Shown here in pieces: positions 33,263 through 48,219 of a stretch of 64,000 nt of DNA. A program made the translations under genes and the position numbers. The notes under the pieces are model-generated. The model searched no databases. It had not been told where the DNA came from and worked only from the letters and a program-made list of their open reading frames with translations. The stretch is from positions 930,001 through 994,000 of the forward strand of contig NZ_NEVU01000002.1 of NCBI RefSeq assembly GCF_002261355.1. Direction: 5' to 3'. The stretch comes from Bordetella genomosp. 12 (GTDB taxonomy: Bacteria; Pseudomonadota; Gammaproteobacteria; Burkholderiales; Burkholderiaceae_B). Numbering within the stretch: the first letter of the stretch is position 1; each line of letters begins with the position of its first letter.

Positions 33263-33670
33263 TCAGTTCCAGCGGCCGCCCGTGCCGCCCAGGCTGTAGC
33301 GCCCGGCGCCGGTGAACATCAAGGCCAGGGCGGTAAAGAGGTACATGCCCTGCAGCTCCAGCGCCCAACCGCCGCTTTGCGGATTGATGCTGCCAAACTG
33401 GCCGGCGTGCACCAGCATCAAGGCGACGATCATATTGGCGAAAACCAGGAAGGCGCCCAGCCGCGAGAACACCCCGACGATGAGCAGTACGGGGCCCACG
33501 ATTTCGCCCAGGTAAACGCCATAGGCCAGAAAGCCCGGCAAGCCATGCGATGACAGCATGCCGGCGATGCCGCCCACGCCGCTACCCAGCTTGAACAAGC
33601 CGTGCATGAGAATGAGGATGCCCAGCGCCAGACGCAGGATCAGTTTGCCGATATCGTCAGATTTATTCAT
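33263..33670 (-). CDS. DoxX-family membrane protein
   Basis: A 135-residue protein with four predicted membrane helices. LALGILILMHGLFKLGSGVG and YLGEIVGPVLLIVGVFSRL are typical of DoxX-type subunits, which are found with quinone oxidoreductases and stress systems but often have no defined role. The start at 33670 (MNKSDDIGKLILRL) is preferred; a longer upstream frame is not supported. A small perfect inverted repeat, TGAGGC-5-GCCTCA at 33704-33720, lies upstream in the promoter zone. Confidence 0.87.
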   Translation of the reverse strand: MNKSDDIGKLILRLALGILILMHGLFKLGSGVGGIAGMLSSHGLPGFLAYGVYLGEIVGPVLLIVGVFSRLGAFLVFANMIVALMLVHAGQFGSINPQSGGWALELQGMYLFTALALMFTGAGRYSLGGTGGRWN

Positions 33671-33833
33671 AGCGGTCTCGCCGGTGGAGTGAGGCAGGTT
33701 GATTGAGGCAAAACGCCTCACGGGGACAGGCGCGGCCATTATTGCAAATTCCGTTCGAACGGCACAAGCCTGACGCCGCCCACCCTGACCGCCCGGGGCC
33801 GAGCCCATGGCGCCGGCCATGCCCGGCGATGCG

Positions 33834-33880: not shown

Positions 33881-34309
33881 TTACTTGACCAGCGTGACCG
33901 GCACGGCAGAGAGGTGTATCACCTTTTGCGCCACCGAGCCCAGCACCAGCCCGCCCACAGCGCCCAGACCGCGCGTACCCATCACGATGCGATCGCAGTG
34001 TTTTTCTTTGGCGTAATCGGCGATGGTCTGCCCCAGCGGCCCGGCGCGCATATCGGCCTGGAAGCGCACGCCGCTGGCCCGGGCTGCAGCCAGGGCGCCG
34101 GCCAGGGCCGCGTCGGACTCGGCCTTGTAATAGTTATCGATGGTGTCCTTGCTCAGGAACATCTTGGCGTGGCCCGAGATGATGGGCAGTTGCACATTGA
34201 GCAGGTGAATCTGCGCGTCGCCGCCGCTTTCTTTGGCCAGGCCGATGGCATCGTTGAGCGCGCGCAGCGCGCAGTCGGAACCGTCAATGGGGACAAGAAT
34301 ATTCAGCAT
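33881..34309 (-). CDS. Universal stress protein (UspA family)
   Basis: A 142-residue UspA-domain protein. It starts MLNILVPIDGSDCALRALND, the nucleotide-binding N-terminus. The ATP-binding motif G-2x-G-9x-G-S is present in MGTRGLGAVGGLVLGSVAQK. Usp proteins support survival in starvation or low oxygen. It lies downstream of the PHA operon, separated by 108 bases that contain a hairpin, so it may have its own promoter. Confidence 0.93.
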   Translation of the reverse strand: MLNILVPIDGSDCALRALNDAIGLAKESGGDAQIHLLNVQLPIISGHAKMFLSKDTIDNYYKAESDAALAGALAAARASGVRFQADMRAGPLGQTIADYAKEKHCDRIVMGTRGLGAVGGLVLGSVAQKVIHLSAVPVTLVK

Positions 34310-34417: not shown

Positions 34418-35158
34418 TCAGTACTGGCCACCGTTCATGGCAACGTTGCTCCCGGTCATGAAGCCGGCGAGCTCGCTGCAGATAAAGGCGATGAGGGCGG
34501 CGATTTCTTCGGGTTTGCCGAGGCGGCCCACCGGGATCTGCGGCAAGACCGTCTCGCGCAGCACGTCGGGCGGCACCGCCGCGACCATGGGCGAGTCCAG
34601 ATAACCCGGCGACACCGTGTTGACGGTCACGCCTTTGCGCGCGACTTCCAGCGCCAGGGATTTGGTAAAGCCATGGATGCCGGCCTTGGCGGCGGCATAG
34701 TTGGTCTGCCCGAACGCGCCCTTAAACCCATTGACCGAGGAGATGTTGACGATGCGGCCCCAGCCGCGCGAGGTCATGCCCTCGAGGAAGGGCTGGGTCA
34801 TGTTGAACATGGAGTCCAGGTTGGTGCGCAATACCTCGCTCCACGCTTCGGGGCGCATTTTGCGCAGGCTGGCATCGCGCGTGACGCCGGCGTTGTTGAC
34901 CAGGATGTCCACGGTCAAACCATCGGCAGCCAGCGCCTCAGCCAAGTGGCGGCAGCTGCCGTGGTCGCCGACGTCCACGCCGTAGGCCAGGAATTCGCGC
35001 CCCGCGGCCTGTTGCGCCCGCAGCCAGGCCTCGGCGGCCGTGCCGCGCTGGTGGCAGGTGATGATGACCCGGTGGCCCGCGCCATGCAGGGCGTGCGCCA
35101 CGGCCTGGCCCAGCGCGCCCATGCCGCCAGTGACCAGTGCCGTGCGCTTAGCTTTCAT
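34418..35158 (-). CDS. phaB: Acetoacetyl-CoA reductase (PhaB-like SDR)
   Basis: A 246-residue short-chain dehydrogenase. The NADP-binding motif is ALVTGGMGALGQAVAHAL, NNAGVTRDASLRKM follows, and the catalytic Ser-Tyr-Lys set lies in SSVNGFKGAFGQTNYAAAKA. The GFKGAFGQTNYAAAKAG block is characteristic of PhaB and distinguishes it from general FabG. It supplies (R)-3-hydroxybutyryl-CoA for polyester synthesis. It overlaps the phasin gene by 11 bases, and PhaC is encoded by the first gene of the same run. Confidence 0.88.
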   Translation of the reverse strand: MKAKRTALVTGGMGALGQAVAHALHGAGHRVIITCHQRGTAAEAWLRAQQAAGREFLAYGVDVGDHGSCRHLAEALAADGLTVDILVNNAGVTRDASLRKMRPEAWSEVLRTNLDSMFNMTQPFLEGMTSRGWGRIVNISSVNGFKGAFGQTNYAAAKAGIHGFTKSLALEVARKGVTVNTVSPGYLDSPMVAAVPPDVLRETVLPQIPVGRLGKPEEIAALIAFICSELAGFMTGSNVAMNGGQY

Positions 35159-35618
35159 GCCGCTCTCCCAGTGTGCGCAGGGATTGGGTGGCGGCGGACA
35201 TTTGTTCGGCCAGGGTGGTCCACATCCGGCCCGCGGGCGATCCGCTCAGGCCATTGCAGGCCGTGCCCGCTTCCTGCAGCCAGGCATTGCCCGCCTGCGA
35301 TAGGCCGGCGGCTAGCGCGGCCTGTTCGGACAGCACGGTGTGGACGACGGCCGAGGTGGCGTCCAGGCGTGCCTGCCATTGCTGGCGGGCGACATCGCCC
35401 AGCGCCGGGGCGAGGGTCTGCCAGTCGTGCGTCTGCGTCAAGGGGGCGAACGTGGATTGAACGCGGCTGGCGTTGTCGCCCCAGAGGTGCTGGGCCAGCG
35501 CGGCCCAACGGCCCTGGCTCTCCTGCGCCAGGGCGGCCAGGCGCTGGCAGTACGCCAGATTGGCGGTGAACAGCGAGGCCGCCGGCGGGGTGCTGGGTTT
35601 TGAAGTGGTTTTCTTCAT
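35148..35618 (-). CDS. Phasin-family protein
   Basis: A 156-residue, Ala/Gln-rich, probably all-helical protein. It starts MKKTTSKPSTPPAASLFTAN and continues with long amphipathic helices such as LAYCQRLAALAQESQGRWAA, as in phasins that coat PHA granules. It has no signal peptide. The start at 35618 has GGAAGG upstream; the longer frame before it is unlikely. Position directly before phaB and downstream of phaC in one transcript supports a granule role. Confidence 0.78.
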   Translation of the reverse strand: MKKTTSKPSTPPAASLFTANLAYCQRLAALAQESQGRWAALAQHLWGDNASRVQSTFAPLTQTHDWQTLAPALGDVARQQWQARLDATSAVVHTVLSEQAALAAGLSQAGNAWLQEAGTACNGLSGSPAGRMWTTLAEQMSAATQSLRTLGERHES

Positions 35619-35656
35619 GATCCTTCCTTGCAAAAGGTGAAAAGGAGGAGCCCGGG

Positions 35657-36784
35657 TCAGGCAAGCTGACTGAGGGTCTTGCGAAAACGCCCGAGCGAAA
35701 AGGCAAACAAGAGGCTGCCTATGACCAACAGCGCCAGAAACGGCGCCCACACAACATTCAGCCCCGCGCCTCGGTACAGGATAGCCTGCCCCAATTCCAC
35801 AAAATGTGTGGTGGGCGCGGCCAGCATGATGTCCTGAACGAACTGCGGCATGCTTTCACGCGGGGTATTGCCGCCCGAGAGCATCTGCAGGGGCAGCAGC
35901 ACCAGCACCAGCAGCATGCCGAACTGCGGCATGCTGCGGGCCAGCGTCGCCAGGAAGATGCCCATGGAAGTGGTGGCAAACAGGTGCAGGGCCGCGCCGG
36001 TCAGAAACAGGGCGACCGAGCCTTCGATGGGGATGTGCAGGGCGCCGCGTACGACGAAAGTGAGCGACAGGCCGGCGGCCACCAGCACGACCAGCCCCAT
36101 GGACCAGACTTTGGCCAGCATGATCTCGGCCGGCGTGACGGGCATGACCAGCAGATGCTCGATCGTGCCGTGCTCGCGTTCGCGGATGAGCGCCGCGCCG
36201 GTCAGGATGATGGACAACATGGTGACGTTGTTGATGATTTCCATCATGGCGCCGAACCAGGCCTGCGTCAGGTTGGGGTTGAAACGCATGCGCACGGCCA
36301 GGTCTACCGCGGGCGTGTCGGCCTTGCGGTAGCGTTTGACGAAGGCGTCGACCTCGTCGCTGATGATCTGCTGGATGTAGCCGCTGCCGGTAAAGGCCTG
36401 GCTCATGCGGGTGGCGTCGATATTGAGTTGAATCTCGGCCGGCCGTCCGGCCAGGACATCGCGCTGGAAGTTGGGGGGAATGTTGATCCAGAAGGTGTAC
36501 AGCCCGCGATCCATGCCCGCGTCGGCCTGCGCGGCCGTGACATGGGCCGGGGGCGTGAAGTGCGGCGGATAAAAGGCCGCCACGATGCGTTGCGACATGG
36601 GCGAGGCGTCTTCGTCGACCACCGCAATGGGGGCGTTGTGCAGCGTCTCGGGCACCGCCGTGGCGGCGGTGTAGATCATGAGGGTGAAGGACACCGCGAT
36701 GAGGATGAGCATCATCGGGTCGCGGGCCAGGCTCCAGAGCTCTTTGACGCCCAGCCGGTAAATATTGGCGATGTGGCGGCCCAT
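35657..36784 (-). CDS. ABC-2 type permease (YhhJ-like)
   Basis: A 375-residue membrane protein. One N-terminal helix (about residues 23-45) precedes a large extracytoplasmic domain (about 45-175), followed by five hydrophobic segments with IREREHGTIEHLLVMPVTPA, the ABC-2 motif. It matches YhhJ, the partner of the RbbA-like protein encoded just upstream with a three-base gap. Together they should form the inner-membrane part of a drug or metabolite exporter. Confidence 0.88.
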   Translation of the reverse strand: MGRHIANIYRLGVKELWSLARDPMMLILIAVSFTLMIYTAATAVPETLHNAPIAVVDEDASPMSQRIVAAFYPPHFTPPAHVTAAQADAGMDRGLYTFWINIPPNFQRDVLAGRPAEIQLNIDATRMSQAFTGSGYIQQIISDEVDAFVKRYRKADTPAVDLAVRMRFNPNLTQAWFGAMMEIINNVTMLSIILTGAALIREREHGTIEHLLVMPVTPAEIMLAKVWSMGLVVLVAAGLSLTFVVRGALHIPIEGSVALFLTGAALHLFATTSMGIFLATLARSMPQFGMLLVLVLLPLQMLSGGNTPRESMPQFVQDIMLAAPTTHFVELGQAILYRGAGLNVVWAPFLALLVIGSLLFAFSLGRFRKTLSQLA

Positions 36785-36787
36785 GAT

Positions 36788-39532
36788 CTATACCTCCTGC
36801 TTTTTGAGCAGCAAGACCGACGCGCCCAGCAGCACGGGCACGGCAATCAGCAGCGGCCAGAACGAACTGTAGAGGTCCTGCATGTGCAAGGCCTTGCTGA
36901 ACACGCCGCGCGAGATGGTCAGCATATGCGTGGCCGGATAGATCTGGCCGATCAGCCGTCCGCCGCCCTCGAGCGAGGACACCGGGTTGATCAGGCCGGC
37001 GAACTGCACGGCGGGCACCATGGTGCCCATCATGGTGAAAAACAGCGCCGCGATCTGGCTGCGCGTAAAGGTCGAGGCCAGCAAGCCGATGGCGGTCGCG
37101 ATGACGCTATAGATGAGCGCGGCAAGCAGCAATGTGGCAAAGCTGCCCGTGATGGGGACATCGAAGACCGTCACGGCCAGCAATACCATGAGCAGAAAGT
37201 TCAGCATCGCCAGCGCGACATAGGGCGCCTGCTTGCCCAACAGAAACTCCAGCCGGGTGACGGGCGTGACGTAAAGATTGATGATGGACCCCAGTTCTTT
37301 CTCGCGCACCACCGACAGCGCGGTGAGCATCGCGGGCATCATGAGCAGCAACAGGGGAATCACCGCCGGCACCATGGCAGGCAGGCTGCGCACATCGGGG
37401 TTGTAGCGAAAGCGCGACTCGATGCTCACCGCCAGATGCGTCGAGCTGCCTGACTGTTTTCTCGCCTGCTCCAGCAGCCACCCTTGGTGCATGCCTTGCA
37501 CATAGCCGCGCACGGTTTCGGCGCGTTGCGGCATGGCGCCATCTACCCAGATCCCGATCTGCACGTCCTTGCCGCGCTGCACGTCGCGCGCGAAGCCGGC
37601 CGGGATCTCGATGGCCAGGGCGAGTTTTCCGGCTCGCATGCGCTGATCCATATCGGCGTAATCGGTGATGGGAGGCTGCTCGATGAAGTAGCGCGAACCC
37701 GACAGGTTCAGCGCGTAGTCCTGGCTCAGGCCGGTCTGGTCGCGGTCCAGCACGGCGTAGCGCAGGTCTTCGACGTCCATGCTGATGCCAAAGCCCATGA
37801 CGAACATGAGAATCAGCGAGCCGACCAGGGCCAGGGTGGCGCGCACCGGATCACGGCGCAGCTCCAGCGCTTCGCGCCACATATAGCTGGCCGCACGGCT
37901 GATGTGAAAACCTTTGAGGTGATGGCTGGCCGCCTTGGCGCTGTCCGGAGCGGGCGCGCTTGGCGGGGCCGCGGGCGGCGCGCTGGGCTGCGGCCGGGTG
38001 CCGGCGCCGGCCTGCACCAGGTAGTCGATGAAGGCATCCTCCAGCGTGGCGGCGCCGCAATGGCGCGTGATGGCTTCGGGCGTGTCGCTGACCAGCACCT
38101 TGCCCGCATGCATGAGCGAGATTCTGTCGCAGCGCTGCGCTTCGTTCATGAAGTGGGTGGAGATGAAGATGGTCACCTGGTCCTGTCGGGCCAGATCGAT
38201 CAGCAGGCGCCAGAAATTGTCGCGCGCCACGGGATCCACCCCCGAGGTGGGCTCATCGAGGATGAGCAACTCCGGCTTGTGGACCATGGCCACGGCCAGC
38301 GACAGGCGCTGACGCACGCCCAGCGGCAGACTGTCCGGCAGGCTGTCCAGGACGTCGGCCAGGTCGAAGCGTTCGACCATGGCCTGCACCCGGGCCGGGA
38401 TGTCGGCCTCGGGCACATGAAAAAGCCGGGCGTGCAGCACCAGGTTCTGGCGCACGGTGAGTTCGCCGTAGAGCGAAAAAGCCTGCGACATATAGCCCAC
38501 GCGCCGCCGGGTGTCGATGTCGCGCGGGTCGACTTCGTGGCCGAACAGCCAGGCCTGGCCCTCGCTGGCCGGCAAGAGCCCGGTGAGCATCTTCATGGTG
38601 GTGGACTTGCCGCAGCCGTTCGAACCTAGAAAGCCGAAGATCTCGCCCTTGCGGATGCGGAAATTGACGTGGTCGACGGCCACGAAGTCGCCGAAACGCA
38701 TGGTCAGATCGCGCGCTTCGATGGCGACTTGCGCGTTGTCGTCCACGGCCAGCGGCTGAATCACCACGGGCTGGTGGCCGCGCTTTCTTTCCTCGGGCAG
38801 CAGGGCGATGAACGCTTCCTCCAGCGAACTGCTGCCGGTGGAGGCAAGCAGTTCGGCCGGCGTGCCGGTGGCCAGGACGCGGCCGGCGTCCATGGCGATG
38901 AGCCAGTCAAAGCCCTGGGCCTCGTCCATGTAGGCCGTGGCCACGATGACGCTCATGCCCGGGCGGTCCTGGCGGATGCTGCCGATGAGGGCCCAGAATT
39001 GCGCCCGCGCCAGCGGATCGACGCCGGTGGTGGGCTCGTCCAGGATGAGCAGATCCGGATCATGGATGAGCGCGCAGCACAGCCCCAGTTTTTGTTTCAT
39101 GCCGCCCGAGAGCTTGCCGGCCGGCCGATCCAGAAAGGCGTCCAGGCCGGTGGCGCGGGTCAGCTCGTCGATGCGGCGCCGGCGTTCGGCCGCATCATGG
39201 CCGAAGAGTCGGCCGAAGAACTGCAGATTTTCCTCGACCGACAGGGTGGGGTAGAGGTTTTTGCCCAGGCCCTGCGGCATGTAGGCGATACGCGGGCAGA
39301 CTTGCTCGCGATGCTGCGCGTCGGCCATATCGCCACCCAGCACCATGACCTTGCCCGCTTGCACCGCGCGCGAGCCGGCCACCAGCGCCAGCAGGCTGGA
39401 CTTGCCCACGCCATCCGGGCCGATCAGGCCCACCATGCGCGCGGCCGGGAAGTCCTGGGTCAGGTCGTCCAGCGCGACGGTCTTGCCATAGTGCTGGCTG
39501 ACATGCTCAAGCCGGGCGACAGGCTCGCTCAT
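36788..39532 (-). CDS. Double-ATPase ABC exporter with fused permease (RbbA/YhiH-like)
   Basis: A 914-residue fusion. The first nucleotide-binding domain (about 1-240) has [21 protein letters not shown] and [13 protein letters not shown]. The second (about 270-500) has [14 protein letters not shown], a degenerate signature [12 protein letters not shown] and [13 protein letters not shown]. The C-terminal ABC-2 domain (about 545-914) starts with [20 protein letters not shown]. This architecture is that of E. coli RbbA/YhiH. The ATG at 39532 shares one base with the stop of the HlyD gene. Confidence 0.9.
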
Positions 39533-40593
39533 CACGGCACCTTGACTTCGAGATTGGCGGGCCAGGCCGCATCGGGATCGAGCTTGATCCAGGCCACGCC
39601 CGGCAGGCCGGTCTTGACCTGTTCGAGGTGGCGCTGCAGCAGCTCAGGGCTGATCTGCGCCTTGACGCGGAACATGAGTTTCTGGCGTTCGCTGGCCGTC
39701 TCCACGGTTTTGGGCGTGAACTGCGCGGTGCTGGCGACATAGCTGACCGAGGCCGGAATGACGAATTGCGGCGCGGCGTCCAGGATGATGTGCACTTCCG
39801 TGCCCAGGGCCACCTTGCCGGCCGCCTGCTCGGGCAAAAAGAAGGTCAGGTAGACATCGGAGAGATCCACCAGGTTCAGCACCTTGCCGCCGGCGCCGAG
39901 GACTTCGCCAGGCTGGGCCACGCGATACTGCACCCGGCCGTCGCGCGGCGCGCGCAGTTCGCTGTCGACGATGTCGGCTTGCACGCGGGCCACGGTGGCC
40001 TGCGCGGCTTCGATGGCCGAGCCCGCGCCGATTTCTTCCGCCTGGGCGGCCTGGATGGCGGCGTCGGCGGCGGCCACTTGCGCGCGGGCGGCCGCCACCG
40101 CGGCTTCGGCGCTGCGCACGCGGGCACGGTCATCGTCCAGTTCCTGGATGGACGAGGCGCCTTCCTTGGACAGGGTCTGCGAGCGGGCCAGGCGGCGGCG
40201 CGCGGCGTCCAGTTCGCTTTCGCGCTGCACCACGACCGCCTGCGAAGCCTGCTTGTCGCTGCGGCGCAGGGCGACCTGCGCCCGGGCGCTGGCCGCCGCG
40301 TTGATGGCCTGTTGGTGTTGGGCGCGTGCTTCGGCGTGCTGCGCGTTGAGCGTGTCGATCTGCATGCGGGCCAGGGGTTGCCCGGCTTTGACGAAGGCGC
40401 CCTCATTGACCAATACATCCTCCACGCGGCCAGCCAACTTGGTGGCGACGTCGATCTCGGTGGCTTCGATACGGCCATTGCCGCTGACGAAGCCGTCTCC
40501 GGGGCCCCGGTCGTTGAAGGTGCGCCAACCGTAGTAACCGAGCAAGGCCACGACGGCGACGATGGCCAGGGGCAGAATTTTTCGGGCATTCAT
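39532..40593 (-). CDS. HlyD/EmrA-type membrane fusion protein (YhiI-like)
   Basis: A 353-residue periplasmic adaptor with an N-terminal membrane anchor ([20 protein letters not shown]). The lipoyl/barrel-sandwich half [20 protein letters not shown] precedes a long Ala/Glu/Arg-rich coiled-coil (about 85-200), and a closing half has [20 protein letters not shown]. It links the inner-membrane ABC complex to the outer-membrane channel. The start at 40593 is the first sensible one; the longer frame upstream runs through the channel gene. Confidence 0.9.
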
Positions 40594-40606
40594 CTTGGAG
40601 ACCTCG

Positions 40607-42052
40607 TTACGGTTGTTCTGGGGTGGCCGGTGCGACGGCCGGGACGTGCGTGCCGCCGCCCAGCGCGGTAAAGAGCGCGACCTGGCTCGACAGCAGGGCG
40701 CGCTGCGTGCTGGCCCATTGCTGTTGGGCATCGAGCAGGTCGCGCTGCGCGTCGAGGACTTCGAGAAAGGGCGAGGCGCCGTGGTCGTACCGCAGCCGGG
40801 CCAGCCGCGCGCGTTCGGCCTGGGCCTGCACGGTGGCGTGCAGAATCTGCACTTGTTCGGCCAGCCAGTAGCGTGCCGACAGGGCATCGGCGACCTCCCG
40901 GAAGGCGGTCTGTATGCTCTTCTCGTACTGCGCCACGGCCTGTTGCTGCCGCGCCCGGGCCAGTTCCAGATTGGATTGGCGGCGTCCCGCGTCGAAGATC
41001 GGCAGGTTCAGATTGGGGGCGAAATTCCAGGCCAGGCTGCCGCTTTTGAACAGGCCGTCGAGCTGACTGCTGGCGGTGCCGAAGGCGCCGGTGAGCGTGA
41101 TCTGCGGAAAGAAGGCCGCCCGCGCCGCGCCGATATTGGCATTCGCGGCCCTGAGCTGGTGTTCGGCGGCCACGATGTCGGGCCGGTTGGTCAGCAGATC
41201 GGAAGGCAGGCCGGCCGGCAGGTCACGCATGAGCGCTTCGTGCGTCAGGGCATCGGGAGCAGGGGGCACGTCGATCGGCTGGCCGATGAGTTCTTGCAGG
41301 CTCTGCAATTGCGCCGCGCGCGTGCGTTCGAGTTCGGCTCCCAGGGCCGTGGCCTGCTGCCAGAGCGTTTCGACCTGCGTCAGGTCGAGCTTGGAGATCG
41401 AGCCCACCTCGAAGCGGCGCCGGAAGATGCGCAGCGATTCCGCCCGGGTGGCGATGGTCGAACGCGTGAGCGCCAGGCGTTCATCGAGTTCGCGCAGCGT
41501 GAGGTAGCTGTCGGCCACCTGGCTGATGAGCGAGAGCGTGGCCGCCTGCCGTGCCGCGTCGGTCGCCAGGTATTGCTCGAGCGCGGCGTCTTTCAGATTG
41601 CGCACGCGGCCCCAGAAGTCCAGCTCCCAGGACGCCATGCCCAGTCCCACCTGGTATTGCGACCCGGTGACCGGACGGCCCGTGAGGTTGAGATCGCCGG
41701 GGGTGCGTTGGCGTGTGCCGTCGGCGGTTGCGCCCAGGGTGGGGAACTGATCCGCCCGTTGGATGCCGTAGGCTGCACGCGCTTCTTCGACCCGCAGGAT
41801 AGCCAGACGCAAGTCGCGATTATTGTCCAGCGCCCGGGTGATCAGGGCGCGCAACTGCGGGTCGGTGTAGAAGGCCTGCCAATCGACCGTGGCGGCCGCA
41901 GGGCCAGCCTGTTCCGGCTGAACCGCCGGCGCGGCCGGCTGCGGGAAGCGGTCGGCCACGGGCAGGGCCGGCTGTTCGTAGTCTGGCGCCAGCGAGAGGC
42001 AGCCCGACAGCAGGCAGGCGCTGATCGCAAGGCTGAGCAAGCGGCAGGTCAT
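40607..42052 (-). CDS. Outer-membrane efflux lipoprotein (NodT/OprM, TolC family)
   Basis: A 481-residue outer-membrane channel. The signal peptide ends in a lipobox, LLSGCLSLAPDYEQP, so it is a lipoprotein like OprM. Two repeated OEP domains follow, with LTGRPVTGSQYQVGLGMASW and ELDFWGRVRNL in the first and FNLGLNLPIFDAGRRQSNL-like sequence in the second (here APNLNLPIFDAGRRQSN). The gene begins four bases after the phaC stop and ends 13 bases before hlyD. Confidence 0.9.
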   Translation of the reverse strand: MTCRLLSLAISACLLSGCLSLAPDYEQPALPVADRFPQPAAPAVQPEQAGPAAATVDWQAFYTDPQLRALITRALDNNRDLRLAILRVEEARAAYGIQRADQFPTLGATADGTRQRTPGDLNLTGRPVTGSQYQVGLGMASWELDFWGRVRNLKDAALEQYLATDAARQAATLSLISQVADSYLTLRELDERLALTRSTIATRAESLRIFRRRFEVGSISKLDLTQVETLWQQATALGAELERTRAAQLQSLQELIGQPIDVPPAPDALTHEALMRDLPAGLPSDLLTNRPDIVAAEHQLRAANANIGAARAAFFPQITLTGAFGTASSQLDGLFKSGSLAWNFAPNLNLPIFDAGRRQSNLELARARQQQAVAQYEKSIQTAFREVADALSARYWLAEQVQILHATVQAQAERARLARLRYDHGASPFLEVLDAQRDLLDAQQQWASTQRALLSSQVALFTALGGGTHVPAVAPATPEQP

Positions 42053-42056
42053 GATG

Positions 42057-43787
42057 TCATTTCTCCAACACGTAGGCGCCGGGCGCGGCGCCCAGCACCG
42101 GAAGTCCCAGGCGCGGCGCGCCCATGCCCGGCGGTCTGGCGCGCGCCGGTCCGCTATGGCTGTCGAGCCACCGCACCCAGGCTGGCCACCAGGAGCCCTC
42201 ATGCCGGTCCGCCTGATCGCACCAGTCATCCGGCGGCAAACTGGCGGCATGGGCCGCCCGCTCGAGGATGCGATAGGCCCGGCGCGGATGGCCGGGCTCG
42301 CTGACGATGCCCGCGTTGTGGCCGCCGCTGGCCAATACAAATGTCAGCGCTGCGGGGCTCAGATGATGCAGCTTGTAGACCGATCGCCAGGGCGCGACAT
42401 GGTCGCGTTCGGTGGCCACCGCGAAAATGGGCTGGCGCAGGTCGGCGAGCATGACCGCGCGTCCGCCGACGGGGTAGCGGTTTTGGGCCAGGTCATTGTT
42501 CAGGAACAGACGCCGCAGATATTGGGCATGCATGCGCGCCGGCATGCGGGTGGCATCGGCGTTCCAGGCCATGAGGTCATTCAGGGGGCGGCGCTGGCCG
42601 AGCAGATATTCATTGACCAGGCGCGACCACAGCAGGTCATAGGAGCGCAGCATCTGAAACGCGCCGGCCATCTGATCGGCGCGCAGGTATCCGGTGCGCG
42701 CCATCTGCGCCTCCAGCATGCTGATCTGGCTTTCATCGATGAACAGCCCGAGCTCCCCCGGCTCGCTGAAATCCGTCTGGGCAGTAAAGAGCGACAGCGT
42801 GGCCAGCCGGGTATCGCCCTCGCGCGCCAGGGCGGCCGCGGCAATGGCCAGCAGCGTGCCGCCCAGGCAATAGCCTGCGGCGTGGATGCGCTGGCCGGGC
42901 ACGATGGCATTGACCGCGCCGAGCGCGGCGTCCACGCCTTCTGCCAGATACTCGTCCATGCCCAGATCGCGATAGGAGGCGTCAGGATTCTTCCAGGAGA
43001 TGCAGAACACCGTGTAACCCTGATCCACCAGATAGCGGATGAGGGAGTTGTGCGGCGACAGGTCGAGGATGTAGTACTTCATGATCCACGCCGGCACGAC
43101 AAGCAGGGGTTCGGGGTGAACCTTGGCCGTGGCGGGTTCGTACTGCAGCAACTCAATCAGGCGGTTGCGGAACACGACCTTGCCAGGCGTGAGGGCCACC
43201 GCTTTGCCGGGGCGAAAACCATCGGCGCCGGCTGGCGGTTGCCGTTCCAGTTCGCGCAGGGCGTCCTCCAGGGCATGGCGCGCGCCGCGTGCCAGGTTGG
43301 CGCCGCCTTCTTGCCAGGTCTGGCGCAGCACTTGCGGGTTGGTCCAGAAGGCGTTGCCCGGCGAGAACATATCGAGCCACTGGCGCGCCGCGAAGGCGGC
43401 CAGCTGGGCATGGTGGGCTTGCACGCCAGGCACATCGCGCGTGGCCGCGTCCCACCATTGCTGAGTCAGCAAGAACTGCTGCCGGTAAAGCGTGAACGGC
43501 CATTGCTGCCAGGCGGGATCGCTGAAGCGCCGATCGGTGTCCAGGGCGGGGTCCGGCGCGGTGCTGGCACCCGCGGCCATGGCTTGACCCAGGCGCGTCG
43601 CTTGATCGAACGCCAGTTCGCCCAGTGCCAGACGGGTGCCGGGCGCGTTGGCGAGATGGCAGGCCCAATCCATCCAGGCCAGCAAGCCTGCAGCGGGCGA
43701 TAAGGAGGCGGTGCAGCGGGCAAGCGCCGCCTTGGCCGCCCTATCCAGGGCGGTGTGGGCGTGCGAGGGGATCTTGCGCTTGCTCAT
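42057..43787 (-). CDS. phaC: Poly(3-hydroxyalkanoate) synthase, PhaC family
   Basis: A 576-residue alpha/beta-fold polymerase. The catalytic cysteine lies in the lipase-like box HAAGYCLGGTLLA (near residue 306). The Asp in ATERDHVAPWRSVY (about 461) and the His in LASGGHNAGIVSEPGH (about 490) complete the triad. PAWIMKYYILDLSPHNSLIR and FCISWKNPDASYRDLGMDEY are conserved PhaC segments. The length suits a class I enzyme. AGGTGG precedes the ATG. It is the first gene of the exporter-phasin-phaB run. No phaA thiolase is nearby. Confidence 0.92.
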   Translation of the reverse strand: MSKRKIPSHAHTALDRAAKAALARCTASLSPAAGLLAWMDWACHLANAPGTRLALGELAFDQATRLGQAMAAGASTAPDPALDTDRRFSDPAWQQWPFTLYRQQFLLTQQWWDAATRDVPGVQAHHAQLAAFAARQWLDMFSPGNAFWTNPQVLRQTWQEGGANLARGARHALEDALRELERQPPAGADGFRPGKAVALTPGKVVFRNRLIELLQYEPATAKVHPEPLLVVPAWIMKYYILDLSPHNSLIRYLVDQGYTVFCISWKNPDASYRDLGMDEYLAEGVDAALGAVNAIVPGQRIHAAGYCLGGTLLAIAAAALAREGDTRLATLSLFTAQTDFSEPGELGLFIDESQISMLEAQMARTGYLRADQMAGAFQMLRSYDLLWSRLVNEYLLGQRRPLNDLMAWNADATRMPARMHAQYLRRLFLNNDLAQNRYPVGGRAVMLADLRQPIFAVATERDHVAPWRSVYKLHHLSPAALTFVLASGGHNAGIVSEPGHPRRAYRILERAAHAASLPPDDWCDQADRHEGSWWPAWVRWLDSHSGPARARPPGMGAPRLGLPVLGAAPGAYVLEK

Positions 43788-43880: not shown

Positions 43881-43886
43881 AGTATT
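43881..43886 (-). promoter_or_regulatory. Candidate -10 element of the phaC promoter
   Basis: AATACT on the minus strand (4 of 6 to TATAAT) would place transcription start near 43874. The centre of the FNR-type box is then about 44 bases upstream, close to the class II activator position of -41.5. This is inference; no start site is known. Confidence 0.35.
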
Positions 43887-43911
43887 GTCGGCCCGGCGGC
43901 CGATTCCAGCT

Positions 43912-43925
43912 TTGACGCAGATCAA
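43912..43925. promoter_or_regulatory. FNR/ANR-type box upstream of phaC
   Basis: TTGAC-GCAG-ATCAA at 43912-43925 differs by one base from the FNR/ANR consensus TTGAT-N4-ATCAA. It lies in the 202-base region between the divergent phaC and tetR genes. It suggests that low oxygen activates the polyester/exporter operon. Confidence 0.65.
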
Positions 43926-43932
43926 GGTAATG

Positions 43933-43946
43933 ACCGACCAGTCGGT
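43933..43946. promoter_or_regulatory. Palindromic TetR-type operator
   Basis: ACCGAC-CA-GTCGGT at 43933-43946 is a perfect 6+6 palindrome eight bases from the FNR-type box and 43 bases before the tetR start. Its form is typical of TetR/AcrR operators located next to their own gene, so autoregulation and control of the divergent phaC operon are likely. Confidence 0.65.
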
Positions 43947-44658: not shown

Positions 44659-47010
44659 TTAACGGTTCAAGCCCAGCCGGCCCAGCATGCGCGGGCCCAC
44701 CTGTCTGCGGCTGGTGGCGTAATCGGCCCAGGGGTTCGGGTTGTTCTCCACCCAGGCGCAAGCATTGCGCAGATTAAAGGCCGGTCCGCGCAGATCCTGG
44801 GCCGGATCGAGCATCTCCCAAGGCAGGGGCAGGGACACGGGCCCTCCCGGGCGGGCGCGCACGGAAAACGCCGCGACAGCGGTGGCGCCGTTGCCATTGC
44901 GCAGGTAGTCCACAAAGATGCGGCCGCGCCGTTTGGCCTTGGCCATATTGGCCACGAAGCGATCGGGCAGCAAACGCTCCAGCCTGTCGGCCAGGCCGTG
45001 CGCCAGCATCTTGACCTCGTCCCAGCCGGCCAGGGGCCTGAGCGGCGCCACGAGGTGCAGGCCCTTGCCGCCGGTGGATTTGAGAAACGGCACCAGACCG
45101 ACCTCCTGCATCAGCCCGCGCGCCAGTTGGGCGCCTTCGACGAGCGTGGCCCAGCTCACTCCTTCGCCCGGATCCAGGTCGAGGATGAGGCGGTCCGGGC
45201 AGTCGTTCTTGGGCGCGCGCGCGTTCCAGGTATGCAACTCGATGACCCCCCATTGCACCAAGGCAATCAAGCCTTCCAGGGTGTCGATCGTGAGATTGCC
45301 CTGCGGGTCGCGGCTGACTCCAGCCGGCAAGGGGGAGGTGATGTGCTTCTGAAAGAAGCCCTTGTGATCGACCCCTTCGGGATAGCGCAAGAGCGCCACC
45401 CGGCGTTTTTGCAGCTGCGGCAGGATACGCGGGCCGATAGCCTCGTAATAGCGCGCCAGCGTCAGCTTGCTGGTGTCGGGCTGGCGCAGCACGATGCGGG
45501 CCGGATGGCTGATGGTGATACGGCGGATCTGTTCCGGCATGGCAGGGGCCTCGGGGCGGACAGGGGGGGCGGGAGCCGGGTCATCGACCTGCGCGGCCGG
45601 TTTGTCGGCGCGCAGGCCGACGAAGGCGGCCTGACGCAAGCGGCCTTCGCGGGTCAGTCCCGCGTAGGTGACCTCGGCCACGAGTTCGGGCTGCAGCCAG
45701 GTCGCCCCTTTGGCGGCGGGCGGCAGATGCACGAAGGGGCTGCCGGGTTGCGTCAAGGCTTGCATGCGGTCCTTCAGGCGGCGCAGGGTGGCGGCGTCAA
45801 ACCCCGTGCCCGCGCGGCCGACGTATTCCAGGCGTTTGCCGCGCCGCAGCCCCAGCAGCAGGGCGCCGAAGTGTTCGCGCCCGCCGGCCGGCGGGGTATA
45901 TCCGCCGATGACGAACTCCTGGCGCGGGCGGCATTTGAGTTTGAGCCAATCCTGACCGCGGCCCGGCGCATAAGGGGCCTCGGCCCGCTTGGCGATCAGC
46001 CCCTCCAGCCCGAGGCGGCAGGCCTGGGCCCAGGCCTGGCCTGCCTGGGCCGCGTCGGCGACCTCGATACTTTGGGTCAGCATGAGCGGCGCGGGCGCCT
46101 GCTCCAGCAGTACCCTCAGCCAATGCTGGCGTTGCGACAGGCTCACCCCGCGCAAGTCGCGGCCTTCCCAGTAGGGTATGTCGAAGACCACGAAGCGCAA
46201 GGCCGAGGCGTCGCCGTCGAGCGCGTTCTGCAGCAACTGGAAGTCCGAAATGCCCTGGCGATTGAACACCACCACTTCGCCGTCCAGCCAGCCCTGGCCC
46301 AGCCGCATGGCGGCGATGGCATCGGCCAAGGCCTGCAGCCGGGCCGTCCAGTCCAGACCGTTGCGGCTGATGAAGCGCACCTTGCCGGCGCGCAGCGCGC
46401 ACGACATGCGGTAGCCGTCGTATTTCACCTCGTAGTTCCAGTGCGCGCCGGGCGGCGGCCGCTCGGCCAGCGTGGCCAGCGGCGGCGGCATGCGGCTGGG
46501 CATGGCGGCGGCTTTGCCGGGCAGGGTGTCCGGCCGCGGCCCAGCCGGCCGGTCCTGCAGTTTGCGCAGCAGCCATTGGTCTGCGCGGGTCTGAATGAGC
46601 GCCCATTCGCCCTGCAGGCGCTGGCCCTCGAGACGAAAGCGCAAATGCCCGCGCTTGAGCGCGCGTGCCGGGTCGCCGTCCATCTGCCAATGGCCGCTAT
46701 CCCAGATGTCGACGTGGCCCGCGCCGTAGTGGCCGGCGGGGATGTCGCCGGCGAACTGCGCATACTCCAGCGGGTGATCTTCCACCCGCACGGCCAGCCG
46801 TTTGATCGCGGGGTCCGTCGACGGCGCCTTGGGCACGGCCCAACTGACCAGCACGCCGCCTATCTGCAGCCGGAAATCGTAATGCAGGCGCCGCGCCGCG
46901 TGCTTTTGCACGACAAAGACGGCGGCGTCTTGCGCACGGATCTCGCCCCTGGGCTCGGGGCTGGCCGAAAAGTCGCGCTTGGCGCGATAGGCCTGCAGCT
47001 TGCCGGCCAT
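44659..47010 (-). CDS. ligD: Three-domain DNA ligase D
   Basis: A 783-residue NHEJ ligase with domains in the order phosphoesterase-ligase-polymerase. The phosphoesterase (about 1-150) has ARRLHYDFRLQIGGVLVSWA. The ATP-dependent ligase has NYEVKYDGYRMSCAL with the adenylated lysine near 193 and EGLIAKRAEAPYAPGRGQDW. The primase-like polymerase (about 500-780) has RLILDLDPGEGVSWATL and LKSTGGKGLHLVAPL. It starts one base after the ku stop and works with Ku on double-strand breaks. Confidence 0.95.
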   Translation of the reverse strand: MAGKLQAYRAKRDFSASPEPRGEIRAQDAAVFVVQKHAARRLHYDFRLQIGGVLVSWAVPKAPSTDPAIKRLAVRVEDHPLEYAQFAGDIPAGHYGAGHVDIWDSGHWQMDGDPARALKRGHLRFRLEGQRLQGEWALIQTRADQWLLRKLQDRPAGPRPDTLPGKAAAMPSRMPPPLATLAERPPPGAHWNYEVKYDGYRMSCALRAGKVRFISRNGLDWTARLQALADAIAAMRLGQGWLDGEVVVFNRQGISDFQLLQNALDGDASALRFVVFDIPYWEGRDLRGVSLSQRQHWLRVLLEQAPAPLMLTQSIEVADAAQAGQAWAQACRLGLEGLIAKRAEAPYAPGRGQDWLKLKCRPRQEFVIGGYTPPAGGREHFGALLLGLRRGKRLEYVGRAGTGFDAATLRRLKDRMQALTQPGSPFVHLPPAAKGATWLQPELVAEVTYAGLTREGRLRQAAFVGLRADKPAAQVDDPAPAPPVRPEAPAMPEQIRRITISHPARIVLRQPDTSKLTLARYYEAIGPRILPQLQKRRVALLRYPEGVDHKGFFQKHITSPLPAGVSRDPQGNLTIDTLEGLIALVQWGVIELHTWNARAPKNDCPDRLILDLDPGEGVSWATLVEGAQLARGLMQEVGLVPFLKSTGGKGLHLVAPLRPLAGWDEVKMLAHGLADRLERLLPDRFVANMAKAKRRGRIFVDYLRNGNGATAVAAFSVRARPGGPVSLPLPWEMLDPAQDLRGPAFNLRNACAWVENNPNPWADYATSRRQVGPRMLGRLGLNR

Positions 47011-47011
47011 C

Positions 47012-47962
47012 TCAGGCCGCCTTGCGCCGGCTCGATCGGGAGGCTGTGCGCGTTGACGCGCTGGTTTTGGCCGCTTTCTTGACCGTCTTTTTCGCCGCTT
47101 TCTTGGCGGTTTTCCTGGCCGCCGATTTGGCCGGCGGGCTAGCCTTGGCCGGGGCTTTGCGCGCCGCGGCGGGTGTGCGCCGGCCCTGGTCGATGCTTTG
47201 TTTGAGCATGGCCATCAGATCCAGCACCTTGGCCGAACCCGGCGCGGCGGCCGGTTCATCGGCCTGGCTCAGGCTATGCGTCTTGCCCGCCTTGACCTTG
47301 GCGCGGATCACCGCCAGCAGGTCTTCGCGATAGCCATCGCGGTACTGCTGCGGATCCCAGTCCAGCCCCATCTCGTCGATCAGGCGCAAGGCCATCTCTG
47401 TTTCGCGCGCGGTGGCGCGCTTGGCGGGCAGTTCCATGTCAGGCGCCTCGCGGATCTCGTCCGCATAGCGCATGGTCACCATCATCAAGGCGTCGCCTTG
47501 CGGCAGCAGCGCGGCCAGATGCTGACGGGTGTGCAACACGACTTGCGCCAACGCCAGACGGCCGCTTTTGCGCAACGCGTCGCGCAGCAGCACATAGCCC
47601 GGCCCGCCGCGCTTGTCAGGCTCCAGGTAATAAGGCGTGTCGTAGAAGTACAGCGGGACCTCGGCGGCCTTGACGAAGCCCAGGATCTCTATGGTCTGCG
47701 TGGCAACGTCATTGGCGCGCCGGAAATCGTCGTCGCTGAGATAGACATAATCGCCTTTCTCGTACTCGTAGCCGCGCACGATGTGCTCGGCGGAGATGGC
47801 TTTGCCGGTGCGTTTATTGATGCGCTGATAGCCGACCGGCGCGTCATCGCGCTTGTCGATCCAGTCGAAATCCAGCCGTGCCGATTGGATAGCCGGATGC
47901 ACGGCCACGGGGATATGCACCAAACCAAAGCTGATCGCACCTTTCCAGAGGGTTCTCGCCAT
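47012..47962 (-). CDS. ku: Ku protein (non-homologous end joining)
   Basis: A 316-residue bacterial Ku. MARTLWKGAISFGLVHIPVA is the hallmark N-terminus. The bridge region has YVYLSDDDFRRAN and YFYDTPYYLEPDKRG. The C-terminal tail (about 255-316) is a Lys/Ala/Ser low-complexity segment with KKAAKKTVKKAAK-like repeats, as in Ku proteins with DNA-binding extensions. It binds broken ends and recruits LigD, encoded next in the same transcript. The start at 47962 is chosen over a longer upstream frame. Confidence 0.95.
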   Translation of the reverse strand: MARTLWKGAISFGLVHIPVAVHPAIQSARLDFDWIDKRDDAPVGYQRINKRTGKAISAEHIVRGYEYEKGDYVYLSDDDFRRANDVATQTIEILGFVKAAEVPLYFYDTPYYLEPDKRGGPGYVLLRDALRKSGRLALAQVVLHTRQHLAALLPQGDALMMVTMRYADEIREAPDMELPAKRATARETEMALRLIDEMGLDWDPQQYRDGYREDLLAVIRAKVKAGKTHSLSQADEPAAAPGSAKVLDLMAMLKQSIDQGRRTPAAARKAPAKASPPAKSAARKTAKKAAKKTVKKAAKTSASTRTASRSSRRKAA

Positions 47963-48219
47963 GTCGGGCTCCTGAGCGCTTGCCAGCGTCCACCATACGC
48001 GGCCCATGGCGGGCGCGTCCAGAAACCTGGCTAAATTGGGGGCTTCAGGGTGACAGCGCGGCGATTTCGGGTAAAAAGGAAGCGTCAGGGTATTGTCAGC
48101 CGGCCATCCGGCAAGCGGGCCGCCATTGCCAATCCGGCCGGGCCGCGTCATGCTGCCAATACGCTGAGCGGTTCTGAATGGCCGGCGCCCGTCGGGGGCG
48201 CCCACAAACAGGAGCAGTC

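Follow-up and report, generated by a model that had tools for sequence, protein, structure and literature searches.

Two Escherichia coli exporters, YhiI-RbbA-YhhJ and YbhG-YbhF-YbhS-YbhR (the latter with a TetR regulator), are the closest described counterparts of the transport genes considered here; we know of no established substrate for any RbbA-type exporter, that of E. coli included. The locus in question is a seven-gene operon on the minus strand of a 64,000-nucleotide stretch of the Bordetella genomosp. 12 genome (contig NZ_NEVU01000002.1, positions 930,001 to 994,000; hereafter the window), in which genes for an RbbA-type exporter stand between those for a polyhydroxyalkanoate (PHA) synthase, PhaC, and an acetoacetyl-coenzyme A (CoA) reductase, PhaB. 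Second PHA synthases have been studied in two species and, in the accessible text of those reports, PhaC2 appears as a low-oxygen gene without a clear product: in Herbaspirillum seropedicae, the dksA-phaC2-fabI-Hsero_2407 operon is a direct Fnr1 target, phaC2 transcripts are down 100-fold in a triple fnr mutant, and PhaC2 may be unimportant for the production of polyhydroxybutyrate (PHB); in Bradyrhizobium diazoefficiens, phaC2 is a FixK2 target and encodes no active PHB synthase. By analogy, this published work supports low-oxygen control and would weaken the idea of bulk storage. Searches of open-licence PMC papers brought up no listing that pairs a PHA synthase with an RbbA/HlyD exporter. 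Here, we report that the pairing recurs widely among relatives of the window operon, together with other acyl-CoA genes and a conserved control element, and we tentatively propose a low-oxygen function for it.

The first-pass annotation of the window had listed seven minus-strand genes between positions 34418 and 43787, and all seven are present, in the order phaC, channel, HlyD adaptor, RbbA, YhhJ, phasin-like and PhaB (Table 1), with intergenic gaps (4, 13, −1, 3, 38, and −11 bases) that match that annotation exactly and support its view of the genes as packed into a single unit. Nothing between phaC and the channel gene speaks for a break in transcription: a sigma-70 scan has no site there (the one it reports for this region lies on the opposite, plus strand), nor does it have one at the putative phaC promoter, and no terminator was found at this junction. 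The region holds four terminator-like sites versus 5.8 in shuffled sequences. Two weak, overlapping terminator-like sites lie at the end of the YhhJ gene; such sites are no commoner than in shuffles. The seven genes would form one transcript.

Family scans place most of the products above model cut-offs. PhaC has the PhaC_N domain and hydrolase core of a PHA synthase, with a Cys-Asp-His triad that is invariant in all 106 aligned PhaC proteins, and is assignable to the PhaC family and not to class I (507.9 bits versus a cut-off of 622.65 for the NCBI class I PHA synthase model TIGR01838). RbbA exceeds the cut-off of the equivalog NF033858, a model that also matches in an E. coli control, and an HlyD adaptor and a second ABC-2 permease adjoin it, as befits an RbbA-type exporter. 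PhaB passes TIGR01829 and scores 164.3 bits versus a cut-off of 436 in the stricter model NF042966. The sixth product is called only phasin-like because it scores 20.1 bits versus the gathering score of 24.9 for Phasin_2 (PF09361), a model matched at E ≤ 0.01 by 11 of the 15 proteins in the alignment. The operon genes are under purifying selection: ratios of nonsynonymous to synonymous substitution rates (dN/dS) range from 0.07 to 0.42 in comparisons with Bordetella hinzii (locus L011, where a contig end limits the comparison to PhaC, channel, HlyD, RbbA, and TetR) and with two same-genus genomes (L178 and L173, compared for all seven genes and TetR).

To count linkage, we scored RbbA matches within 15 kb of a PhaC_N match as adjacent, including the window's own pair in each count, and derived expectations by assuming two PhaC per 4-Mb genome and random placement; family, order, and phylum are ranks as named by the genome collection used, and all linkage and co-occurrence counts take genomes singly, ignoring relatedness. 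RbbA is present in 88 of 200 family, 42 of 300 order, and 39 of 398 phylum genomes, and adjacent matches outnumber those expected at each rank, with 30 versus about 1.6 among 98 family matches, 5 versus 0.7 among 45 order matches, and 3 versus 0.7 among 43 phylum matches. The 30 family pairs span nine genus codes, and 29 of the paired PhaC are PhaC2-like, our working label for a match to the window PhaC at E ≤ 1e-150 (the PhaC of the remaining pair, in G762, is only a short frame); the 200 family genomes hold 75 PhaC2-like matches in total. Co-occurrence within genomes, with RbbA counted at E ≤ 1e-200, agrees: both genes occur in 50 of the 200 family genomes, PhaC2 alone in 15, RbbA alone in 38, and neither in 97 (p = 6.5e-11), such that RbbA is found in 50 of 65 family genomes with PhaC2 versus 38 of 135 others. 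Across the phylum, the figures are 11 of 38 versus 28 of 360 (p = 3.5e-4, or 1e-3 without the window's genome). The G769 genome has a PhaC2-like frame (G769:C37:6263-7969) interrupted by a single in-frame TAG, which its exporter-adjacent copy lacks.

Viewed from the synthase side, among the 80 best-matching PhaC loci from named genomes, out of at least 592 relatives (not a random sample, and only 50 of them with long flanks on both sides), an RbbA-type exporter stands beside 21 and a partial one beside 3; it is downstream and codirectional in 14 cases, upstream and codirectional in 2, and divergent in 5. Four more of these loci (L044, L057, L070, and L082) have a different exporter, with two separate permeases, divergent to PhaC. 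The L057 adaptor, the only one of the four scanned, scores 483.9 bits versus a cut-off of 393 for NF002939, which we take to be the YbhG model, and the L057 ABC protein (603 amino acids [aa]) has two ATPase stretches. A further exporter type lies beside PhaC in L080, whose protein scores 784.8 bits with the RbbA model (cut-off, 1,050). Among 50 named genomes without an RbbA-type exporter near PhaC2, 28 carry one elsewhere, compared with 39 of the 398 phylum genomes (p = 2.6e-13; the two samples were differently drawn). The operon pairing is, as such, not a local accident.

We mapped the genes of 100 loci to see what travels with the pair; of the 40 family loci, 20 had been picked for RbbA-PhaC proximity. 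The window order, TetR-PhaC-channel-HlyD-RbbA-YhhJ-phasin-PhaB, recurs in L170, L173, L178, and L179, and L168 and L174 have it with a different type of phasin plus a thiolase and DUF3141, so that the gene order, whose lack of conservation would have counted against the first-pass annotation, is conserved in relatives. Six loci (L163, L164, L166, L169, L175, and L176) add at least one of FabI, DUF3141, MaoC-Pta, and AckA; the fullest arrangement, TetR-PhaC-FabI-channel-HlyD-RbbA-YhhJ-(phasin)-PhaB-DUF3141-MaoC-Pta, occurs in L175, L176, and L227. MaoC-Pta is a bifunctional enoyl-CoA hydratase/phosphate acetyltransferase (the L080 protein scores 726.5 bits; cut-off, 282), and DUF3141 is described in published work as a family of polyhydroxybutyrate polymerases. 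Module genes also surface in 6 of 34 RbbA loci fetched from genomes without a nearby pair (L227, nearly a full module, and L228, L231, L235, L251, and L255). From this recurring neighborhood, coupling of the exporter with PHA and acyl-CoA genes is well supported, as the first-pass annotation had suggested. In three more of the 34 loci (L224, L226, and L236, from two Sphingobium genomes), the exporter operon lies about 0.7 kb downstream of genes resembling those for both PhaB and thiolase, which may be another connection with the precursors of PHB.

The region between phaC and the divergent TetR gene contains two conserved elements, which are well supported as sequence features: a palindrome, ACCGACTGGTCGGT, the putative TetR operator, and a predicted FNR/ANR box, TTGATCTGCGTCAA. 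We aligned 12 hand-chosen TetR-intergenic regions, that of the window and those of 11 near relatives. Four of them (the window, L011, L173, and L178) have the exact palindrome, and the remaining eight have a recognizable version with one or two changes; all but L173, where it is degenerate, have an exact FNR box; and the AAT of a putative −10 hexamer, GACAAT, is retained in all 12. Taking GACAAT as the −10 would center the FNR box at about −41.5, the geometry of a class II promoter. The first gene behind these regions is phaC in six cases and the channel gene in the other six (L122, L123, and L182 to L185); because the control element is present before the channel gene in these phaC-less relatives, it accompanies the exporter as well as phaC. 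The TetR gene likewise adjoins the exporter in relatives with and without phaC. As for a candidate activator, the window genome has one match to the Crp helix-turn-helix model PF00325 (the only Crp/Fnr model of this kind searched), in a protein with FNR-like cysteines, CxxCx5C, as read by eye.

More widely, 20 of 76 named PhaC loci have an exact box (TTGAY-N4-RTCAA) in the 400 bases before PhaC, against 0.9 expected. Upstream of the exporter operons, each taken from its first mapped gene, the box is present in 20 of 42 PhaC-linked operons (0.56 expected), 9 of 13 module-linked operons without PhaC (0.17 expected), and 4 of 59 unlinked operons (0.78 expected); module-linked operons thus total 29 of 55, versus 4 of 59 for unlinked ones (p = 6.7e-8). 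A later set of loci gave 10 of 33 (0.44 expected). Across 59 scrambled palindromes, the mean number of matches was 0.51, 0.10, 0.10, and 0.07 in the PhaC-linked, module-linked, unlinked, and later sets, respectively, and the highest single values were 12, 3, 3, and 2; the scramble with 12 matches, YTGAT, overlaps the FNR consensus. Such boxes at exporter and PhaC operons support the low-oxygen context assumed in the first-pass annotation.

Table 1. Genes and predicted control elements of the exporter-PHA operon (positions in the window)
Feature	Position	Strand	Basis
phaC, PhaC2-like PHA synthase, 576 aa, operon gene 1	42057..43787	-	PhaC_N (183.8 bits, cut-off 23.7), PHBC_N, and Abhydrolase_1 above cut-off
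NodT-type outer-membrane channel lipoprotein, 481 aa	40607..42052	-	TIGR01845 (NodT; 424.9 bits, cut-off 210.05); LSGC lipobox by eye
HlyD-family periplasmic adaptor, 353 aa	39532..40593	-	HlyD_3 (62.6 bits, cut-off 22.2) and HlyD_D23 above cut-off
RbbA, two ABC ATPase domains fused to ABC-2 permease, 914 aa	36788..39532	-	NF033858 (1598.9 bits, cut-off 1050)
YhhJ-like ABC-2 permease, 375 aa	35657..36784	-	ABC2_membrane_3 (119.1 bits, cut-off 31.6)
Phasin-like protein, 156 aa	35148..35618	-	PF09361, below cut-off
phaB, acetoacetyl-CoA reductase, 246 aa	34418..35158	-	TIGR01829 (AcAcCoA_reduct; 324.3 bits, cut-off 302.1)
Divergent TetR-family regulator, 220 aa	43990..44652	+	TetR_N (64.2 bits, cut-off 24)
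Palindrome ACCGACTGGTCGGT, putative TetR operator	43933..43946	-	Aligned intergenic regions
FNR/ANR box TTGATCTGCGTCAA, predicted	43912..43925	-	Alignment and enrichment
GACAAT, possible -10 hexamer	43884..43889	-	AAT column conserved; no sigma-70 scan site
Universal stress protein (Usp) gene, directly 3′ of operon	33881..34309	-	Usp (103.3 bits)

In our preferred reading, held at a little less than even confidence, FNR activates and TetR controls this low-oxygen operon, and its pump expels an overflow product of the 3-hydroxyacyl-CoA/acyl-CoA pool. When oxygen drops, FNR would bind the box upstream of phaC and induce the whole set of genes, from phaC through those of the exporter to the phasin-like gene and phaB, with the divergent TetR protein, seated on the palindrome beside the box, repressing the operon until it binds a ligand. 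Through PhaB and PhaC, 3-hydroxyacyl-CoA and polymer would take up electrons and acetyl-CoA; the thiolase, FabI, MaoC-Pta, or AckA added in relatives could turn the same acyl-CoA pool into acids with a gain of ATP. RbbA and YhhJ would form the inner-membrane part of the pump, HlyD its periplasmic part, and the channel its outer-membrane part. Its cargo may be amphipathic and either a product or a by-product of that pool; hydroxy acids, short oligomers of 3-hydroxyacids, and fatty acids are the candidates. The first-pass annotation, whose interpretation is supported in part, had put forward 3-hydroxybutyrate or its oligomers as a possible cargo. A bolder version, which we regard as unlikely, has PhaC2-type synthases making short 3-hydroxyacid oligomers instead of storage granules and the RbbA-type pump acting as their dedicated exporter, so that PHA-derived oligomers or hydroxy acids would leave for the outside or the outer membrane when oxygen is low.

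Several observations weigh against overflow export. Most RbbA matches in the family (68 of 98) and most PhaC2-like matches (46 of 75) are distant from one another, phylum-wide co-occurrence is modest, and 22 of the 42 PhaC-linked operons lack an exact FNR box. Among 29 TetR-intergenic regions examined, the Alcaligenes-type L036, L168, and L174, which have the whole operon, contain neither palindrome nor exact box, and L163, L164, and L176 also lack both. The exporter persists without phaC in eight loci (L122 to L124 and L181 to L185), as TetR-channel-HlyD-RbbA-YhhJ (L181 without a mapped TetR); six of these (L122, L123, and L181 to L184) retain a phasin and some of them PhaB. In two genomes (G758 and G841), the alignment of phaC begins only at residue 86 or 73, a possible sign that the gene is diverging in genomes that keep the pump. 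Nor is a single substrate-specific RbbA clade seen: on a FastTree phylogeny of 120 RbbA proteins, PhaC linkage requires 26 changes, of which starred branches force 20; it was therefore gained or lost many times, so that substrate specificity, if any, marks no single clade. (The tree combines loci picked through PhaC, loci picked through RbbA, and loci picked for the proximity of the two, so the frequency of a label on it does not estimate that in the population; branch stars are less trustworthy with long rows, as for L080.) The persistence of exporters without phaC counts against a PhaC-specific cargo but not against one from a shared acyl-CoA pool; exporters linked to MaoC-Pta or AckA with no PhaC within 13 kb (L132, L188, L208, and L209) also count against a PhaC-specific cargo, as, by analogy, do the B. 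diazoefficiens and H. seropedicae reports on PhaC2.

The nearest rival, a substantial possibility though well short of even, is that the pump serves generally against envelope stress or xenobiotics and belongs to the same low-oxygen regulon as the PHA genes, its cargo being unrelated to hydroxyacyl-CoA. Shared FNR control alone could explain the linkage, many RbbA lineages are linked, and a YbhG-like exporter is also found beside PhaC; moreover, four loci (L124, L185, L189, and L190) carry the exporter and TetR without the module genes looked for, and the best NCBIfam matches of the window TetR, all below cut-off, include drug-efflux as well as fatty-acid regulators. What tells against a general pump is that unlinked RbbA exporters mostly lack FNR boxes and that acyl-CoA enzyme partners recur inside the operon and in several orientations, which shared regulation need not produce. 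Export of a lipid or membrane component, with PHA genes nearby since both draw on fatty-acyl metabolism, we consider improbable: by sequence, the RbbA ATPase domains find their best PDB matches in ABCA lipid transporters, and FabI is a repeated partner, but ATPase-domain similarity says little about cargo, and FabI is the sole recurring lipid-synthesis gene among the gene sets looked for. Inheritance of the joint operon by descent, with no functional coupling, could account for the 3.5- to 3.7-kb spacing shared by 22 of the 30 family pairs; it seems very improbable given at least 20 linkage changes on the RbbA tree, several arrangements, a different type of exporter beside PhaC, and purifying selection on the operon genes. 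The NF033858 model is named for a ribosome-associated ATPase/putative transporter, and RbbA might act on ribosomes under hypoxia and not as a pump, but we give this the least credence of all, as an HlyD adaptor and second permease adjoin RbbA in nearly all maps and an outer-membrane channel does so in many.

The RbbA ATPase domains are themselves asymmetric. Nucleotide-binding domain 1 has the LSGGM signature and lacks the switch histidine (A, S, or G instead) in all 120 proteins, and domain 2 has the histidine, with its signature replaced by LP(L/M)G in nearly all 120; one ATP site should therefore be canonical and the other degenerate. The same genome encodes a second RbbA exporter (G000:C3:661738-664440; L004 and L121), 52% identical to the first, with no mapped module gene and with its channel gene placed after YhhJ. 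Around the operon, the Usp gene holds the same position in L173 and L178 and may be cotranscribed with it or separate; downstream of it lies a gene for a small membrane protein, DoxX-like by eye (33263-33820, minus strand). Just upstream of the operon, beyond the TetR gene, are genes for LigD and Ku (44659-48205, minus strand), of nonhomologous end joining, likewise placed in B. hinzii L011.

Some published loci offer leads at most. The accessible text on Pseudomonas extremaustralis describes a granule-bound HlyD-family protein, and that on Sinorhizobium meliloti an HlyD gene responsive to mutations in the PHB cycle, whose region also holds a putative Fnr/Crp regulator. A low-oxygen-activated locus of Burkholderia cenocepacia was also considered, and the available portion of its description revealed no link to the window operon. 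A Bradyrhizobium metagenome-assembled genome (L061) was rejected as the B. diazoefficiens phaC2 locus, its two identified neighbors (ketopantoate reductase and URO-D) not matching the published neighborhood.

Should the proposed reading prove right, export would join a pathway so far treated as intracellular storage, with a bearing on microbial physiology in low-oxygen niches and on fermentative production of hydroxy acids; the recurring operon of PhaC2 and exporter with FabI, MaoC-Pta, and AckA narrows the questions of the PhaC2 product and the RbbA substrate to one proposal. Compared with the canonical phaC-phaB locus of the same genome (L140; G000:C2:322000-341500, at 331 kb), the window operon shares PhaC and PhaB; no exporter is mapped at L140, however, and its PhaC is 37% identical to that of the window. 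The phaC2 genes of H. seropedicae and B. diazoefficiens resemble the window's, going by their descriptions, as second PHA synthases under FNR/FixK2-type control (predicted for the window), and FabI adjoins PhaC in the H. seropedicae operon as in some relatives of the window operon; the exporter present in the window goes unmentioned in the accessible text on either species. The window exporter resembles YbhG-YbhF-YbhS-YbhR, a lookalike of which lies divergent to PhaC in the four loci named above, in being tripartite and of ABC-2 type, but its adaptor falls below the NF002939 cut-off (144.5 versus 393 bits) and its RbbA is a fusion with one permease. It is closest to E. coli YhiI-RbbA-YhhJ, with an RbbA over the equivalog cut-off and an adjacent HlyD adaptor and YhhJ-like permease, and differs in having its own NodT channel and TetR regulator, a PHA operon setting, and an FNR box. 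As a system, the operon is a new combination built from known families.

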